The position numbers were made by a program, and so were the translations under genes. This document shows, piece after piece, positions 12,354 through 33,693 of a DNA stretch of 47,698 nucleotides. This stretch comes from a virus, in the IMG/VR virus record IMGVR_UViG_3300036832_000055, positions 1-47,698 of that record. One strand, given 5' to 3'. Position 1 is the first letter of the stretch; every line of letters begins with the position of its first letter. Under the pieces are notes generated by a model that was not told where the DNA came from, searched no databases, and saw only the letters and a program-made list of their open reading frames with translations.

Positions 12354-12574
12354 GGCCGCTCGCTCCGGGTCGTCGTCGCCGCGACCTCGCGGCAGGCGGT
12401 CCGCCAATCGACCCCGGCGGCGTCAAGCTCCGCTCTGATCTCGGCGATCAGGGACCAGCGGACGCGAGCGGCTCTCGCGAACCGGTTCGGATGCTCGGGA
12501 GCCTCGATTGCGGCAAGCGCCGCGAGAAAGGCGAGCCGATCCGTATTCTTGAAGTTCAGGGTTCGCGCGGTCAT
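12350..12574 (-). CDS. Small hypothetical protein
   Basis: 74 residues starting MTARTLNFKNTDRLAFLAAL, with 4-bp overlaps at both ends. The long frame extending upstream is a shadow. Ala-rich helices dominate, followed by a Thr/Arg-rich tail. No motif is recognised. Confidence 0.55.
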   Translation of the reverse strand: MTARTLNFKNTDRLAFLAALAAIEAPEHPNRFARAARVRWSLIAEIRAELDAAGVDWRTACREVAATTTRSERP

Positions 12575-12918
12575 TGGACCGGACTCCGGATGATTGTGAC
12601 GTAGGGACCGAGCTTCCGCCGCTGAAAGGCGTCGTAACGGAAGACCCGTCCGGTCCCCGGATTGATTGCGGGAGGCTCGTCGAAATAGGTCCGGACGGTC
12701 CCCATCCGATAAACCTGATCGACGATAAAACCCGCGTCGCGGACCTCGCCGAGGAACCATCGCGGGAGACGCCAGCGGCGCTCGCGGAGGTCGCGCATCA
12801 GGTCGGTCTCGACGATCCCGGCGAAAATCTCTCCGGTTTCTTCGATGACGAATTGACGGCGATGGTCGGCGATACAGTCGCGGATCGCGGCGGCGAATAA
12901 GGGGTTTCGCGCTTTCAT
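12571..12918 (-). CDS. Hypothetical protein
   Basis: 115 residues with 4-bp overlaps to neighbours. It contains IADHRRQFVIEETGEIFAGI near the N-terminus and RVFRYDAFQRRKLGPYVTII near the C-terminus, a mixed alpha/beta composition. No catalytic signature or family is recognised. It is expressed with the accessory operon. Confidence 0.6.
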   Translation of the reverse strand: MKARNPLFAAAIRDCIADHRRQFVIEETGEIFAGIVETDLMRDLRERRWRLPRWFLGEVRDAGFIVDQVYRMGTVRTYFDEPPAINPGTGRVFRYDAFQRRKLGPYVTIIRSPVQ

Positions 12919-20478: not shown

Positions 20479-20581
20479 CGGGAAACCTCGGGAAAAGGGT
20501 CGAGCGCGAACTTTCGCGCTTGTATTCGTGGACCGTCAAGGCGAACTTTCGCGATCCCGTCACAAGTCGCGGGCTTAGGAA
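20479..20581. promoter_or_regulatory. Divergent early control region with two palindromic operators
   Basis: This 103-bp region separates the reverse recombination operon from the forward replication operon. It holds AGCGCGAA-CT-TTCGCGCT (20503-20520, perfect 8+2+8) and the shorter GCGAA-CT-TTCGC (20541-20552). The same 18-bp palindrome recurs exactly at 23919-23936. Two spaced sites between divergent genes are the arrangement of a phage repressor or Cro operator. I did not find a convincing -35/-10 pair. Confidence 0.75.
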
Positions 20582-21343: not shown

Positions 21344-23182
21344 ATGGGACGGACGAGCGGCGACGGTCGGAACGGTCACGGTTTCGAGGACAATCTTCGA
21401 CCTCGCCTCTCGATTTATGACGCCGCCGCGAAACTTCGCGGCAAGGTCGGAAAGGACAATGACGGTCGCGACGTCATCCGCTGTCCCGGTCCGGATCATA
21501 GCGCCGGAGACCGCTCGCTCTCGGTCTGGATCGACGACGACGAGCCGGACGGCTTCGGCGTCTTCAGCTTCTCGACCGTCGACGCCGCCGATCCGCTGAA
21601 AACAAAGGATTGGGTCCGTCGCGAGCTAGGTCTCCCGAATTGGAAGCCGAAGGCGAAGAACGACCGCCGGGACGACGATCCTATCGTCGCGAAATACGCC
21701 TATCAGGACGCGGACGGAGCGCCGGTCCTTCTCGTCAGCCGGACGAAGCTCAAGAGCTTCTATCAGCAGCATATCGACGAGGCTGGCGCTTGGGCTTGGG
21801 GCGGTATCCCGGAGGCCGAGAAGGTCCCGTTCAAGCTCCCGGAATTGATCGAGGGGATCGCGACCGGGAAGGACGTCTATATCGTCGAAGGCGAGAAGTC
21901 GGCGCTCGCGCTGATCGAGCGCGGCTATATCGCGACCTGTAGTCCCGGCGGCGCGGGGAAATGGCCGAAGCACTTCGCGGCGTGGTTCGACGGCGCGCGG
22001 GTTATCATTCTCCCGGATCACGACGAGCCGGGACGCAAGCACGCCGAGAAGGTCCTCGCGAACCTCGACGGCGTCGCGTCCGAGGTCCGGGTTATCAATT
22101 TACCGGGACTAATCCCCGGCGGGGACGTTTGGGATTTTCTAGCGACCGGCGGCGACCCGGCGAGGATCGCGGATATGCGACCCGGTCCCGCGCCGCGCGG
22201 TCATACGGCGGCGGAACTTTGGGCGATGGCCTTTCCGGCGATCAATTACGCGGTCCCGGTCTATATCGCCGAGGGTCTGACGCTTTTCGCCGGAGCGCCG
22301 AAGCGCGGGAAAAGCTGGCTCGCCTTAGACGTTTGCTGCGCCGTCGCGAACGGCGGCTTCACGCTTGGCGATCAGCATTGCATCGAGGGCGACGTCCTTT
22401 ATTGCGCGCTTGAGGATAGCCCGCGCCGAATGAAGTCGCGGCTCAAGACGGTTTGCAGCCTCCCGGACCGACCGCCGAAGCGGCTAACGGTCTGGTTCGG
22501 GAAAGACCTCCCGAGGCTCGGGAACGGCTGCGAGGAAGCTCTCCGGGAGTGGCTCGAAAGCCATCCGGACCCGCGCCTGATCGTTATCGATACGCTGAAT
22601 TATGTCCGGCCTGACCGGGTCCGGGACGAGGACCCGTATAGTTACGACTATCGCTCGGCGACCTCGCTTCAGCGGCTCGCGAGCGAGTTCGGCGTCGCGA
22701 TTATCCTCGTTCACCATACGCGCAAGAGCGCCGCCGACGATTATCTCGAAAGTATCAGCGGAACGAACGGCCTAACCGGCGGAAGCGACGCGGTCGTGGT
22801 CCTCGAACGTCAAGGCGACGGCTCGACGGTCCTGAAGGGTCGAGGCCGCGATATCGAGGAATTTGAAATGGCGGTTCGGTTCGACAAGGAAACCTGCCGA
22901 TGGTCGGTCCTCGGCGACGCCTCCGAAGCGCGTCAGTCGGACGTCCGCTTGCGGATACTCCGTCACATGCGCGAGGCCGGATGGCTCCTGACGCCGGGAG
23001 AGATCGCGTCGCAAACCGGCCTCCGGCGGAATACCGTCGATCAGCGGCTTTTTCAGATGTTCAAGGCTGGCGAGGTCGTAAAGCTCGGTCGCGGGAAATA
23101 CGGCCTCCCGGACGTCATCCGCGACGGCGGGAAGCCGCCGGAGAATGACGAGGAAGGCGACAAAGGCGAGACCGATGATTGA
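21344..23182 (+). CDS. Primase (Toprim)-helicase/RepA-like replication protein
   Basis: 612 residues. An N-terminal CPGPDHSAGDRSLSV (about 48-62) resembles a degenerate primase zinc region. The Toprim domain includes VYIVEGEKSALAL (about 178-190) and IILPDHDEPG (about 221-230). An AAA/RecA-type helicase follows with Walker A FAGAPKRGKSW (about 315-325) and Walker B RLIVIDTLN (about 409-417). The C-terminus is a winged helix (LTPGEIASQTGLRRNTVDQR). This would prime and unwind DNA at the phage origin. A repeat cluster lies directly downstream. Confidence 0.9.
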   Translation: MGRTSGDGRNGHGFEDNLRPRLSIYDAAAKLRGKVGKDNDGRDVIRCPGPDHSAGDRSLSVWIDDDEPDGFGVFSFSTVDAADPLKTKDWVRRELGLPNWKPKAKNDRRDDDPIVAKYAYQDADGAPVLLVSRTKLKSFYQQHIDEAGAWAWGGIPEAEKVPFKLPELIEGIATGKDVYIVEGEKSALALIERGYIATCSPGGAGKWPKHFAAWFDGARVIILPDHDEPGRKHAEKVLANLDGVASEVRVINLPGLIPGGDVWDFLATGGDPARIADMRPGPAPRGHTAAELWAMAFPAINYAVPVYIAEGLTLFAGAPKRGKSWLALDVCCAVANGGFTLGDQHCIEGDVLYCALEDSPRRMKSRLKTVCSLPDRPPKRLTVWFGKDLPRLGNGCEEALREWLESHPDPRLIVIDTLNYVRPDRVRDEDPYSYDYRSATSLQRLASEFGVAIILVHHTRKSAADDYLESISGTNGLTGGSDAVVVLERQGDGSTVLKGRGRDIEEFEMAVRFDKETCRWSVLGDASEARQSDVRLRILRHMREAGWLLTPGEIASQTGLRRNTVDQRLFQMFKAGEVVKLGRGKYGLPDVIRDGGKPPENDEEGDKGETDD

Positions 23183-23212: not shown

Positions 23213-23371
23213 GTTTCTTATGACCGACCCTAGGTTTAGAGGGGTCATAAGAAACAATCATAAGAAACTGAAGTTCAACGAAAACAGGGAGATAGCCTCC
23301 GATGTTCTCGGTTTACCCTCGATTTCTTATGGTTCTTATGACCCTATATAGAGGGGGCGGTCATAAGAAAC
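23213..23371. repeat. Iteron-like cluster of TCATAAGAAA motifs, origin candidate
   Basis: Six copies of the motif in both orientations: GTTTCTTATGACC 23213-23225, GGTCATAAGAAAC 23243-23255, TCATAAGAAAC 23258-23268, a partial copy TTTCTTATG 23323-23331, TTCTTATGACC 23333-23343, and GGTCATAAGAAAC 23359-23371. The first two form a 13-bp perfect inverted repeat. The stretch is AT-rich against a GC-rich genome and follows the replication gene. Either a replication origin with iterons or a multi-site operator. No convincing gene lies in it. Confidence 0.75.
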
Positions 23372-23390: not shown

Positions 23391-23729
23391 ATGACCCTTC
23401 GCCTGACCCGTCCGAGGAAGCGGCGCAACGTGACCGAGACCCGGCTCCGGCTCGGATCGGCGGTCCTCAAGACGGCGAGCGAGGACGCGAAACACGGCGC
23501 GTTCTGGACGTGGCTCGATACCGGCAACCTCGCCGCCGCGAGCGTCTGTCATCGGCTCGAACGGCGCGGTCTCCTGCAAAGCGCCGACGCGCTCTTTCCG
23601 GACCTCGGCGGTCAGACCTATCGGCTCAATCACGCGACAGAACGGGAGGCGACGACGCCGGATGAAAAATCTTCAGCCTGCCGAGATCAGGACCGAGACG
23701 CCGATCCTTCCCGGGATGCCGTTCCTTGA
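23391..23729 (+). CDS. Winged-helix-like small protein
   Basis: 112 residues. A basic N-terminus is followed by HGAFWTWLDTGNLAAASVCH then RLERRGLLQSADAL (about residues 36-69), which looks like a winged helix-turn-helix ending in QTYRLN. The last 30 residues are charged and overlap the next gene by 68 bp. It starts 20 bp after the repeat cluster, so it may bind there, but this is unproven. Confidence 0.6.
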   Translation: MTLRLTRPRKRRNVTETRLRLGSAVLKTASEDAKHGAFWTWLDTGNLAAASVCHRLERRGLLQSADALFPDLGGQTYRLNHATEREATTPDEKSSACRDQDRDADPSRDAVP

Positions 23730-23856
23730 AGCCGCCGGTCGCCGCTGCCTTTGGCCGATCTCCGGCTCCGGCGCGGAGATGGTCGTTTGCGGCGAAAAAC
23801 GGACCGCGTCCTCGGCCTATTGCGAGGATCACAAGCGCCAAAGCACGCCGCGCTAG
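23662..23856 (+). CDS. GcrA C-terminal-domain-like protein
   Basis: 64 residues. PFLEAAGRRCLWPISGSGAE followed by VCGEKRTASSAYCEDH matches the C-terminal part of alphaproteobacterial GcrA (GRRCQWP...FCG...PYCxxH). In Caulobacter GcrA contacts sigma70-RNA polymerase and activates promoters with methylated GANTC sites. The N-terminal DNA-binding helix-turn-helix is absent, so this would be an interaction domain only. It might titrate or redirect host GcrA or RNA polymerase. GGGAGG at 23645-23650 may serve as its ribosome binding site. Confidence 0.7.
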   Translation: MKNLQPAEIRTETPILPGMPFLEAAGRRCLWPISGSGAEMVVCGEKRTASSAYCEDHKRQSTPR

Positions 23857-23918
23857 TCGAGCCGTCCGGGTTTTCCCGGGTTGCGAACCTCGGGTTTCGG
23901 GAGTTCCCTAGCTACCGT

Positions 23919-23936
23919 AGCGCGAACTTTCGCGCT
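23919..23936. promoter_or_regulatory. Operator palindrome identical to 20503-20520
   Basis: AGCGCGAA-CT-TTCGCGCT again, 22 bp upstream of the GTG start of a helix-turn-helix gene at 23959. The exact 18-bp recurrence 3.4 kb away indicates a shared regulator and suggests autoregulation of the downstream gene. Confidence 0.75.
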
Positions 23937-23958
23937 CCGTAGCGACCGGAGATCGTTA

Positions 23959-24348
23959 GTGACGGGAAACCCAAGCTATCTAGGTCGAGCGAAAGCGCCC
24001 GCTCCAAAGCGGGCGAACTTCATTCCCTCGACGCCAAATTATTTCAAATATCAGTGGCTCGACCGCGATCCGGATATGGACCTGATCGTCGGTATCCTCG
24101 GCGAGAGCGGCCTTAGTCCCGAAGACGTCGAGAACGAGACCGCGCGGCTAGGTCACAAGGTCTCCCGATGGACCGTGATCTCTTGGCTATACGGCTCGGT
24201 CAGGCGACCGCAGAACTTCACAATGACAATCGTCGCGATGGCTTGCGGCTGGACGAAGACGTGGGCTCCGGTCGCCTCCGAACCGATCTCCGAAACCAAA
24301 AAATCGGCAACCCTGAAAAAAGAGAAGCGATCCTATGTCGGCAATTGA
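23959..24348 (+). CDS. Helix-turn-helix regulator, candidate for the GCGAA-NN-TTCGC operator
   Basis: 129 residues from GTG 23959, with GGAG at 23948-23951. A longer frame upstream would run through the operator. GLSPEDVENETARLGHKVSR then WTVISWLYGSVRRPQNFT (about residues 50-88) resembles a lambda-repressor-type helix-turn-helix with the recognition helix at VSRWTVISWL. The C-terminal 30 residues are Lys-rich. The palindrome immediately upstream makes it the best candidate for the phage's early repressor or activator. It lacks the LexA-like peptidase domain of classical CI. Confidence 0.65.
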   Translation: MTGNPSYLGRAKAPAPKRANFIPSTPNYFKYQWLDRDPDMDLIVGILGESGLSPEDVENETARLGHKVSRWTVISWLYGSVRRPQNFTMTIVAMACGWTKTWAPVASEPISETKKSATLKKEKRSYVGN

Positions 24349-25171
24349 TCCCCTGAAGATGGCGCAATTCTTCGCGCTTCCCGGCGCGGCTGAACTCGTC
24401 GAAGCCTTCTCGGCGATCCCGCCGGGAGCGGTTCGGAACTCGGTCGTCAGCCACGCGCAGGTTCTAGCGCAAGCGGCGGGCTGGTCGCCGCCGATCCCTT
24501 TCGTCGTGAATCCGGAGGGTCGGATCGAGCCGCCTCGCGAGCCGAAGCGGCTAACGAGTCCGTTCTCGGAGGGTCTCGTTTCGGCGAGCGTCGAGGGTCA
24601 GATCGTCGAACGGATTTTGAAGGGCGAGGCGGATCACGTCGTCGCCGACGATCTCGGGATCAAGCTCGGCGTTATCACGCAATTGAAGCGCGCCGCTCGC
24701 CTAGGCGGCGTCGTCTTCCCCGGCGACGGACCCGCTAAGGGCTGGAAGCCGGTTCAGCCGAAAGGCCAGCGGACGAGCGGCAAGATCGCAACCGAGCGTT
24801 TCCCGGTTCCGTCGCCGCCTTACTGGTGGGAGGACCCAAATTCGCCGGTCTGGGATAACGGACGCTTGCTCCCGTCCTACTCCGAAACCGGCGACGGGAC
24901 GCTCGCGGCGGTCGGTCCGCTCGATTATCGGAATTACGCGACGATGACGTCCGCCGCCGCGCGTCATGGGATCACGCTCCGGGACTATATCGCGCAACGC
25001 CTAGAGATCATCCGTCGCGCCGAGGCTGGTGAAATGCCGCCGAAGATCGCGCTCGATCTCAAACTTAGTGCGTATGCCGTTTATTCGATCCTCGCGAAGA
25101 TCGGTCGCGGCGCGGCGCAACACGCCCGCTGGGCGTCTCCGATCTATCAGCGCGGCAAGCAAGCGGCCTGA
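24335..25171 (+). CDS. Two-helix-turn-helix regulatory protein
   Basis: 278 residues. The middle segment GQIVERILKGEADHVVADDL then GIKLGVITQLKRAARLGGV, and the C-terminal GEMPPKIALDLKLSAYAVYS then ILAKIGRG, each look like the short helix-turn-helix of GcrA or resolvase-type proteins. The region between is Pro/Trp-rich. It starts within the end of the previous gene (14-bp overlap). It may be a transcription factor acting on late or host genes. The family assignment is tentative. Confidence 0.6.
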   Translation: MSAIDPLKMAQFFALPGAAELVEAFSAIPPGAVRNSVVSHAQVLAQAAGWSPPIPFVVNPEGRIEPPREPKRLTSPFSEGLVSASVEGQIVERILKGEADHVVADDLGIKLGVITQLKRAARLGGVVFPGDGPAKGWKPVQPKGQRTSGKIATERFPVPSPPYWWEDPNSPVWDNGRLLPSYSETGDGTLAAVGPLDYRNYATMTSAAARHGITLRDYIAQRLEIIRRAEAGEMPPKIALDLKLSAYAVYSILAKIGRGAAQHARWASPIYQRGKQAA

Positions 25172-31134: not shown

Positions 31135-31674
31135 ATGAGGTCCCCTTTGACTGACCTCCCTTGGCCTGCCGATCAGGTCGTCCGACGCGCCGTCGCCGAG
31201 CTAATTCCTTACGCTCGTAACGCGAGGACCCACTCGCCGGGTCAGGTCGCGGAGATCGCCGGGTCAATCCGCGAATGGGGCTGGACGATCCCGGTTCTCG
31301 TCGACGAGAGCGGCGGGATAATCGCCGGACACGGACGGGTCCTCGCCGCGTTGCAGCTAGGTCTTGAGACGGTCCCGGTTATGATCGCGCGCGGCTGGAG
31401 CGAGGCTCAGAAGCGCGCTTACGTCATCGCCGATAACCGGCTCGCCGAGAACGCAGGCTGGGACGAGAACCTTCTCCGGATCGAACTCGGCGATCTCGAC
31501 GCGGAAGGCTTCGCGCTCGACCTTCTCGGCTTCGGCGACAAGCTCGCCGACCTTCTGATCGAGGAAGCCGCGCCGGACGGGTTCCCCGGCTTCGACGAAG
31601 GGATCGATACCGAGCATGAATGTCCGAAGTGCCACTTCCGCTGGTCAGGTTCGTCGAAGCCGGTCGACGCCTAG
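31135..31674 (+). CDS. ParB/sulfiredoxin-like nuclease-domain protein with zinc ribbon
   Basis: 179 residues from ATG 31135; TTG 31147 has GAGG six bases upstream and may be the true start. AELIPYARNARTHSPGQVAE, GWTIPVLVDESGGIIAGHGR and YVIADNRLAENAGWD are the ParB N-terminal (Srx-like) domain blocks, with GIIAGHGR the phosphate-binding motif. The C-terminal HECPKCHFRWSG is a zinc-ribbon knuckle. In many phages this domain is attached to a DNA methyltransferase. Here it is a separate gene overlapping one by 59 bp, suggesting the two work together. Confidence 0.85.
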   Translation: MRSPLTDLPWPADQVVRRAVAELIPYARNARTHSPGQVAEIAGSIREWGWTIPVLVDESGGIIAGHGRVLAALQLGLETVPVMIARGWSEAQKRAYVIADNRLAENAGWDENLLRIELGDLDAEGFALDLLGFGDKLADLLIEEAAPDGFPGFDEGIDTEHECPKCHFRWSGSSKPVDA

Positions 31675-32893
31675 CGCGCGGATACTCGTCGAGGACGCGA
31701 CCGGCCTAGAGAAGCCGCGAGCGGTCCGGCTCGGCGAGGGTCACGCCTTTATCGATTGCTCCGACGAACCCGCGCCGACCGTCCTCGCCGACCGTCCGGT
31801 CTCGTTCGTCGTTCAGCCGGGTCGAGGCTCGCGCCGGTCGCCGGTCGAGAAGCCGCCTTACGCCGTCCCGTCGATGGCCGAGATCGCGGCGATCAAGCCG
31901 AACGGCCTAACGGTCGCCTCGACCTTCAGCGGAGCCGGAGGATCGTCGCTCGGCTATCGGATCGAAGGCTTCCGGGTCGTTTACGCGAACGAGTTCGTCG
32001 AGGCCGCGCGCGAGGTCTATCGCGCCAACGCGAGCGCCGGGACGGTCCTCGACGGGAGAGATATCCGCGAGGTCACGGCGGACGACGTCCTGAAGCGGAC
32101 CGGTCTTAAGGTCGGCGACCTCGATATCCTCGACGGCTCGCCGCCTTGCGCGGCGTTCTCGTCCGCCGGGAAGCGGTCCGAAGGCTGGGGTCTAGAGCGA
32201 GCCTATTCGGATCGGACGCAACGGACCGACGATCTCTTTTTCGAGTTCGCGCGGCTTCTCTCCGGCCTTCAGCCGAGGACGTTCGTCGCGGAGAACGTCT
32301 CCGGCTTGGTCAAGGGACCGGGGAAAGGCTACTTCCTCGATATCCTCGCCGCGCTGAAGGACGCCGGATATCGGGTCGAGGCGAGGCTTCTCGACGCGCA
32401 ATGGCTCGGCGTCCCGCAGCGCCGGAAGCGGATTATCTTCGTCGGCGTCCGGAACGACCTCCGGCGCGCTCCGGCGTTCCCGACGCCGCTCCCGTATCGA
32501 TACGCGATCCGCGACGCGATCCCTTGGCTCGACGGCTCCGGACCCGCTCCGGAGACGGAGGCCGATATCGGTCGCTTCGCGGTCGGTCGCGAGTGGGACA
32601 ATCTCGGACCCGGCGAATGGTCGACCCGCTATTTTCAACTCGTCCGACCGGCGGTCCATGAGCCGTCGCCGACGATCACGGCGGACGGAGGGTCAGCGTC
32701 GCTCGCAGGCGTGACGCATCCGACCGAACGGAGGAAGTTCTCTATCGCCGAGCTAAAGCGGCTCTGCGGCTTCCCTGACGACTTCGTCCTCTCCGGGACC
32801 TACGCGCAACGCTGGGAACGGCTCGGTCGCGCGGTCCCGCCTCCGATGATGGCGCGGATCGCCGCGACGCTCCGCGACGAGGTTCTCCGATGA
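31616..32893 (+). CDS. C5-cytosine DNA transferase with motif X Asn-to-Arg, predicted carboxymethyltransferase
   Basis: 425 residues from ATG 31616; ATG 31875 is an alternative that still keeps motif I. The protein has motif I TFSGAGGSSLG (103-113), motif IV GSPPCAAFS with nucleophile Cys178, motif VI ENV (226-228), motif VIII QRRKR (268-272), motif IX-like SPTIT and motif X LGRAVPPPM. In ordinary C5 methyltransferases motif X reads GN-A/S-VP. Here the Asn is Arg405. From memory, Lys or Arg at the matching residue of M.MpeI (N374) allows use of carboxy-SAM. With a CmoA-like gene two genes downstream, I infer it puts a carboxymethyl group on C5 of cytosine. The recognition site is unknown. The stop overlaps the next ATG. 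Confidence 0.9.
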   Translation: MNVRSATSAGQVRRSRSTPSARILVEDATGLEKPRAVRLGEGHAFIDCSDEPAPTVLADRPVSFVVQPGRGSRRSPVEKPPYAVPSMAEIAAIKPNGLTVASTFSGAGGSSLGYRIEGFRVVYANEFVEAAREVYRANASAGTVLDGRDIREVTADDVLKRTGLKVGDLDILDGSPPCAAFSSAGKRSEGWGLERAYSDRTQRTDDLFFEFARLLSGLQPRTFVAENVSGLVKGPGKGYFLDILAALKDAGYRVEARLLDAQWLGVPQRRKRIIFVGVRNDLRRAPAFPTPLPYRYAIRDAIPWLDGSGPAPETEADIGRFAVGREWDNLGPGEWSTRYFQLVRPAVHEPSPTITADGGSASLAGVTHPTERRKFSIAELKRLCGFPDDFVLSGTYAQRWERLGRAVPPPMMARIAATLRDEVLR

Positions 32894-33693
32894 AGCCGGA
32901 CGTCCGGAAGGTCCTCTCGGCTTGGGCGCTCTCGATCCCGGAACACCGCGTCGCGGTTCTTCTCTCCGGCGGGATCGATAGCGCCTCGATCCTTTTCGCG
33001 CTTCTCGACGCCGGGAAGGACGTCGACGCCTATTCGTTCGCGCTCGCTGGCTATCCCTCGACCGACTTCCTCGCGGCGCGCGCGCTCGCGAGGTCGCTCG
33101 GGATCGGGTTCCGTCCGGTCTATCTCCCGCGCGATCTCGCGATCCTGAAGCGCGACGTCGTCCGGCTGACCCGGGAGATCGGCGCGAGATCGAAGACGGC
33201 GGTCGAGTGCTTCTGGCCGATGCTTTACGCCTATCCCGAGACCGCCGAGACCGTCGTCGCGAGCGGGATGGGAGCGGACGGCCATTTCTGCATCTCAAAG
33301 CGGGGGATGATCCATTTCCGGGACCGGATCGACGAGTTCCGGCGCGGCCTCTACGCAAACCCGGATTACGCGCAAGCGCCGCTCCATCACGCGTTCGCGG
33401 CGAGCCTCGGGAAGCGCGCCGAGATGCCTTACCTCTCCGACGCGATGCGCGCCGAGTTCCTCGGTACGTCATGGCGCTCGATCAATACGCCGCATCAGAA
33501 GCAGGCGATCCTCGACGCCTATCCGGAGCAGTTCGTCCGGATGAGGGTCCGTCCTCATACGAATTTGCAGCTAGGGGATAGCGGGATCGCCGAACAGTTC
33601 GAGGCGCTTCTCCGCTCGGATTGGAACCCGAGGAATCAAGCGCGCTCGGTCGTCGCGCTCTATAACGCCGCGCGCGACGGGAGGCTCGGATGA
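32890..33693 (+). CDS. Asparagine-synthetase-type amide ligase (no glutaminase domain)
   Basis: 267 residues. VAVLLSGGIDSASILFAL (21-38) is the ATP-pyrophosphatase PP-loop. ASGMGADGHF (124-133) corresponds to the TGDGGDE segment of AsnB, and KRAEMPYLSDAMRAEF and HQKQAILDAYPEQF match later AsnB blocks. The N-terminal glutamine amidotransferase domain (Cys2) is missing, so nitrogen must come from ammonia, an amine or an amino acid. The fold activates a carboxylate as acyl-AMP and forms an amide. Sandwiched between the cytosine transferase and the CmoA-like gene with ATGA overlaps on both sides, its likely substrate is the DNA carboxymethyl group. Confidence 0.85.
   Translation: MKPDVRKVLSAWALSIPEHRVAVLLSGGIDSASILFALLDAGKDVDAYSFALAGYPSTDFLAARALARSLGIGFRPVYLPRDLAILKRDVVRLTREIGARSKTAVECFWPMLYAYPETAETVVASGMGADGHFCISKRGMIHFRDRIDEFRRGLYANPDYAQAPLHHAFAASLGKRAEMPYLSDAMRAEFLGTSWRSINTPHQKQAILDAYPEQFVRMRVRPHTNLQLGDSGIAEQFEALLRSDWNPRNQARSVVALYNAARDGRLG

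Follow-up and report, generated by a model that had tools for sequence, protein, structure and literature searches.

What would a phage do with what appears to be only the sigma-binding half of a host cell-cycle regulator? The question is raised by a 64-aa open reading frame in the IMG/VR virus record IMGVR_UViG_3300036832_000055 (47,698 bp, classed linear), which was analyzed at its full length and is called the window here. GcrA couples the cell cycle to DNA methylation, one of its domains holding sigma70 and the other methylated promoters. In Caulobacter GcrA, methylated DNA is bound by residues 1-45 and domain 2 of the housekeeping sigma factor by residues 108-173, and the protein stimulates open-complex formation at methylated promoters (PMC7403470). 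The window carries genes for an integrase, ERF and YqaJ recombination proteins, a RuvC-like resolvase, a primase/helicase and a C5 cytosine methylase, together with an HK97-like terminase, capsid, portal and tail genes, a content that makes a temperate tailed phage the most likely source. The locus is summarized in Table 1 with its counterparts in two related contigs, IMGVR_UViG_3300048895_000139 (L102) and IMGVR_UViG_3300035691_000017 (L105).

Table 1. Features at the locus of the GcrA-like sigma-interacting domain (SID) gene; positions refer to the window unless a contig is named.
Feature	Position	Strand	Remarks
Primase/helicase with C-terminal winged helix, upstream neighbor	21344..23182	+	70-71% identical in L102 and L105
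About five 12-13 bp sites (TTTCTTATGACC), both orientations	23213..23371	.	Between primase and next gene
ORF of 112 aa, family unassigned	23391..23729	+	Overlaps SID start; homologue in L102
Ribosome-binding-site-like stretch (GGGAGG)	23640..23661	+	Before SID start
Putative stand-alone GcrA SID gene	23662..23856	+	ATG start, 64 aa, PF07750 match
18-bp palindrome AGCGCGAACTTTCGCGCT	23919..23936	.	Just 5' of the 23959 gene
Conserved downstream gene (listed ORF 23881-24348)	23959..24348	+	Probable GTG start at 23959, from alignment
278-aa helical protein, weak generic helix-turn-helix signal	24335..25171	+	Homologues in L102 and L105
SID gene in L102	12244-12459		71 aa, stand-alone, starts in ATGA overlap
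SID gene in L105	5330-5554		74 aa, stand-alone, strand opposite to neighbors

The sole Pfam-A match of the 64-aa product (MKNLQPAEIRTETPILPGMPFLEAAGRRCLWPISGSGAEMVVCGEKRTASSAYCEDHKRQSTPR) is GcrA (PF07750, E 3.2e-7), which is matched only once in the whole record and only across positions 90-143 of the 155-position profile, the C-terminal part that holds the SID. The window and L105 copies score above the 26.9-bit cut-off (31.3 and 27.7 bits), and the L102 copy falls below it (22.8 bits). All the elements of the motif (GRRC-L-WP, CG and YC-ED-H) are present, and a six-frame search of the window for the pattern C.WP..CG..YC..H gave a single hit, against none in 200 second-order Markov re-samplings. 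The NCBIfam GcrA equivalog NF050816 was matched at positions 111-147 of 173 with 17.4 bits, missing its cut-off of 280 bits, while in PHROGs an unnamed 151-aa family was matched by its C-terminal end. When the three SID copies were compared with eight phage GcrA-like proteins using hhalign, the probability was 96.6% (E 6.8e-10) and only the C-terminal domain was aligned; across 11 aligned SIDs, C-x-WP, CG and YC are invariant and the H is found in all but one. Families of the AsiA and gp39 type showed no similarity, as Pfam and PHROGs returned only GcrA and the unnamed family; P7 was likewise unmatched in Pfam.

The C-x-WP...CG...YC-x-x-H core, within profile positions 90-143, is held in common with GcrA of Caulobacter and other alphaproteobacteria (5yix and 7ye1). 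The 64-aa protein has low identity to the Caulobacter SID, and Caulobacter GcrA was the only sequence match in the PDB, a weak one (E 0.02); a PDB search with a SID alignment that contains the Caulobacter SID is circular. The AlphaFold model built from the three sequences is likewise weak (pLDDT 64.7), and Foldseek found no PDB match for it; its top matches in the viral library included several phage GcrA proteins, none of them significant with this weak model (E > 0.5). The N-terminal helix-turn-helix through which GcrA reads methylated GANTC is absent from the 64-aa protein, the match beginning at profile position 90. Whereas alphaproteobacterial GcrA is a 173-aa protein with an N-terminal DNA-binding domain and a linker, the window product is 64 aa long, has its own gene and contains neither. 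As judged from these profile matches, the 64-aa protein is a homologue of the GcrA SID that lacks the DNA-binding domain, and for that reason it is not a GcrA. The initial annotation, which had described the product as a phage-encoded orphan C-terminal GcrA domain with no DNA-binding helix-turn-helix, is thus borne out on both points, and also on the separateness of the gene, found again in L102 and L105.

Several observations argue that this is a gene in its own right. The L102 and L105 copies are 63% and 59% identical to that of the window, with 30 invariant residues, and dN (0.31-0.41) is well below dS (1.6-1.9), giving a dN/dS of about 0.2 that is approximate because dS is near saturation; this pattern indicates purifying selection. 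A ribosome-binding-site-like AACGG(G)AGG stretch stands 5' of the start in the window and in L102, where it takes the form GGAGG at the equivalent place. No helix-turn-helix was found upstream of the SID, and the in-frame upstream sequence is unconserved and is interrupted by stop codons in all three contigs. In L102 the gene order is that of the window (primase, 23391 homologue, SID, 23959 homologue, 24335 homologue). In L105 the SID lies at the equivalent locus in inverted orientation, and a different gene has been inserted next to it; the inversion relative to the neighbors shows an independent gene instead of the tail or a fragment of an adjacent frame. On comparative evidence, the SID gene is a real stand-alone gene kept in three related phage contigs. 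These relatives were reached through the neighboring primase and through a two-sequence alignment; with the 64-aa protein alone as a query, IMG/VR, the GTDB genomes and phage GenBank yielded none. One GTDB match (L106) falls in a gene for purine synthesis in a Bacteroidales MAG and was dismissed as chance. No GcrA match was obtained in viral records that have just the phrog_2072 protein or the cytosine methylase in common with the window, many of which are fragments.

From its Cys3-His pattern the domain would be a zinc knuckle, and it may be asked whether the resemblance to GcrA goes further than that. A knuckle derived from GcrA could have lost sigma binding and taken another role, for example on another phage or host protein, or the gene could be a slowly decaying relic. 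Short C..WP..C..YC..H proteins do exist outside the GcrA family: those of L119 and L120, considered as candidate relatives and set aside, have no GcrA similarity and look like an actinophage zinc knuckle, and the low similarity to the Caulobacter SID points the same way. However, the profile matches are specific to GcrA and not to generic zinc fingers, while conservation in three phages at the dN/dS given above speaks against a relic, so that we regard this explanation as improbable.

The neighboring genes bear on whether the missing DNA-binding part might be supplied by another protein. The initial annotation had taken the gene at 24335 to be the next large gene after the SID, had seen GcrA-like helix-turn-helix segments in it and had proposed that the two together replace a split GcrA. 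These proposals are not supported. A conserved ORF, with a probable GTG start at 23959, lies between the two genes; in Pfam, the 24335 protein gives only a sub-threshold match to the generic HTH_23 (E 0.017); and its profile, built with its relatives, aligns with phage GcrA at a probability of only 0.9% in hhalign. A split GcrA made of the SID and the 24335 protein was rejected, since the latter shows no GcrA-type DNA-binding domain; moreover, the two genes are not adjacent, the conserved ORF standing between them, and the L105 SID is inverted with respect to the 24335 homologue. As a separate observation, the homologues in L102 (12981-14150) and L105 (3753-5012) have a C-terminal part, with a further helix-turn-helix-like stretch, that is missing from the window protein.

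A looser partnership can also be envisaged, in which the SID and a separate phage DNA-binding protein, encoded by 23391, 23959 or 24335, form a split activator brought to phage promoters or to the replication origin. It would fit the presence of the 23959 and 24335 genes beside the SID in all three phages, the ATGA overlap between the 23391 homologue and the SID gene in L102, and the position of a second free SID, described below, after a replication gene. Nevertheless, the L105 record lacks the 23391 homologue and has its SID gene in reversed orientation, and neither the 24335 nor the 23391 protein resembles the GcrA DNA-binding domain (the latter has no match in Pfam, PHROGs or NCBIfam), which leaves such an arrangement quite unlikely.

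The DNA around the locus holds two kinds of repeated element. The array of short sites has counterparts at 11817-11985 in L102 and 6457-6617 in L105, with a conserved layout and 13/103 bp spacing, and the site sequence differs in each phage (TTTCTTATGACC in the window, CAATCTTTCACC in L102 and AGTTTCTTACGG in L105). Such an array appears to be co-evolving and iteron- or operator-like, and is perhaps a replication origin; the 23391 protein was rejected as its sole binder, because L105 has the array without the 23391 gene. The palindrome AGCGCGAACTTTCGCGCT has a second copy in the window (20503-20520) and precedes two operons; it is identical in L105 (5231 and 9246), and L102 retains the core GCGAA-NN-TTCGC at 12565-12576. 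The element is probably the operator of a regulator.

The SID gene directly precedes this conserved intergenic region, whose palindrome is common to the window and L105, and this position would suit a DNA-independent co-activator of sigma70. The SID, seated on sigma domain 2, would then help to form the open complex at phage promoters, with no need for methylated sites or any meaningful displacement of GcrA. In favor of such a mechanism, GcrA, RbpA and Crl all activate via sigma domain 2 by stabilizing the open complex, and Crl, which serves sigma S, works without binding DNA (PMC7403470). Against it, activation by GcrA itself depends on methylated promoters, which its DNA-binding domain recognizes (PMC7403470). 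What is published on GcrA would accommodate co-activation as well as competition with GcrA; we consider a co-activator role unlikely.

Our preferred interpretation, held tentatively and at a little under even chances, is that the free SID is a binder of sigma70 domain 2 that competes with host GcrA. The phage protein would fold as a small Cys3-His zinc-knuckle-like domain, bind domain 2 of sigma70 either in free sigma or in the holoenzyme, and take the place of host GcrA there. Since a free SID could not read methylation, competition with GcrA would be the simplest consequence: lacking the DNA-binding domain, it would give no activation at CcrM-methylated GANTC promoters, expression of the host's GcrA-dependent cell-cycle genes would drop, and phage promoters, which are nearly devoid of GANTC, would gain access to the released sigma70 holoenzyme. 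The protein would thus act as a natural dominant-negative competitor of GcrA, and it might give the phage a way to rival or circumvent the cell-cycle control of its host. In general terms this recalls AsiA, gp39 and P7, likewise small phage proteins that act on host sigma; these target sigma region 4 (PMC7403470), whereas the phage SID would target domain 2. Competition of this kind would add a phage strategy: in place of region 4, the phage would capture the site on sigma domain 2 at which the activators GcrA, RbpA and Crl work. Furthermore, a natural, selected and free sigma-binding half would be a ready tool to separate the two functions of GcrA.

The host of the window phage is probably an alphaproteobacterium. 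GANTC is the methylation site of CcrM, and the window contains 28 such sites versus 392 expected from dinucleotides, or 94 from a third-order expectation; L102 has 1 versus 84 expected and L105 has 0 versus 55, while the observed/expected ratio is near 0.8 in most of the other viral contigs fetched. This scarcity fits a host bearing CcrM and GcrA. In 11 named phages that do not belong to this clade and that either have alphaproteobacterial hosts or carry GcrA-type genes, the ratio ranged from 0 to 0.42, RDJL Phi 1 having 0 GANTC in 20 kb; the presence of a SID in these comparison phages was checked by tblastn only. A tie between GANTC loss and carriage of a free SID was rejected, given that alphaproteobacterial phages are depleted generally, and GANTC scarcity therefore marks a lifestyle and is no evidence for SID function. 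Restriction-type palindromes are also very broadly avoided in the window, with zero occurrences of CCWGG, CCGCGG, CGATCG, CTCGAG, GAGCTC, GGATCC, GGSCC and TTCGAA where dinucleotides predict 26-148 of each, and L102 and L105 avoid different sets. The C5 cytosine methylase is followed, within 31616-33693, by a weakly QueC-like protein (phrog_1550, E 2e-5), a possible DNA modification pair.

Full-length phage GcrA proteins are already known from phiCbK (gp222, PMC3556154), Agrobacterium phage Atu_ph08 (gp5, PMC6630229) and Pam5 (gp57, PMC9382816), and further ones were found here, including those of RHph_X2_24 and Yong-M4-211. They carry a phage-borne SID as the window does, preceded by an N-terminal region that varies among them and is helix-turn-helix-like in most, and the whole proteins are at least 164 aa long where measured, whereas the window SID stands alone. 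The four annotated plasmid-borne GcrA genes that were checked were also all full length, and no description of a stand-alone SID was found in the open-access literature. What appears to be new is the free SID without the rest of GcrA.

A second free SID was found in the 'Microcystis' phages Mwe-JY25 and Mwe-JY07, in which a 75-aa protein deposited as hypothetical (XAI95856.1) is encoded directly after the replication protein O gene. As in the window, the stand-alone SID lies in a replication module, but it is only 28% identical to the window copy and its surrounding genes are unrelated. Its PF07750 score of 22.6 bits is below the 26.9 cut-off, and a search of IMG/VR with this protein found nothing. 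A free SID, then, recurs in an unrelated phage. The wider proposition, that alphaproteobacterial phages have repeatedly made the GcrA SID into a stand-alone sigma domain-2 competitor, uncoupling sigma70 from the methylation-read cell-cycle program, seems possible though somewhat doubtful. More SID genes of 60-75 aa may be hidden in phage genomes as hypothetical proteins.

Mwe-JY25, Pam5 and Yong-M4-211 were deposited as cyanophages and carry GcrA or a free SID. All three are depleted in GANTC (ratios of 0.16-0.25) and resemble alphaproteobacterial phages in this respect; their true hosts may be alphaproteobacteria present in the cultures. Lastly, in Podoviridae ct2G2228 (MW202785.1) a full-length GcrA gene at 2144-2683 was apparently missed in annotation, and the overlapping 'replisome organizer' CDS probably has its annotated start too early.
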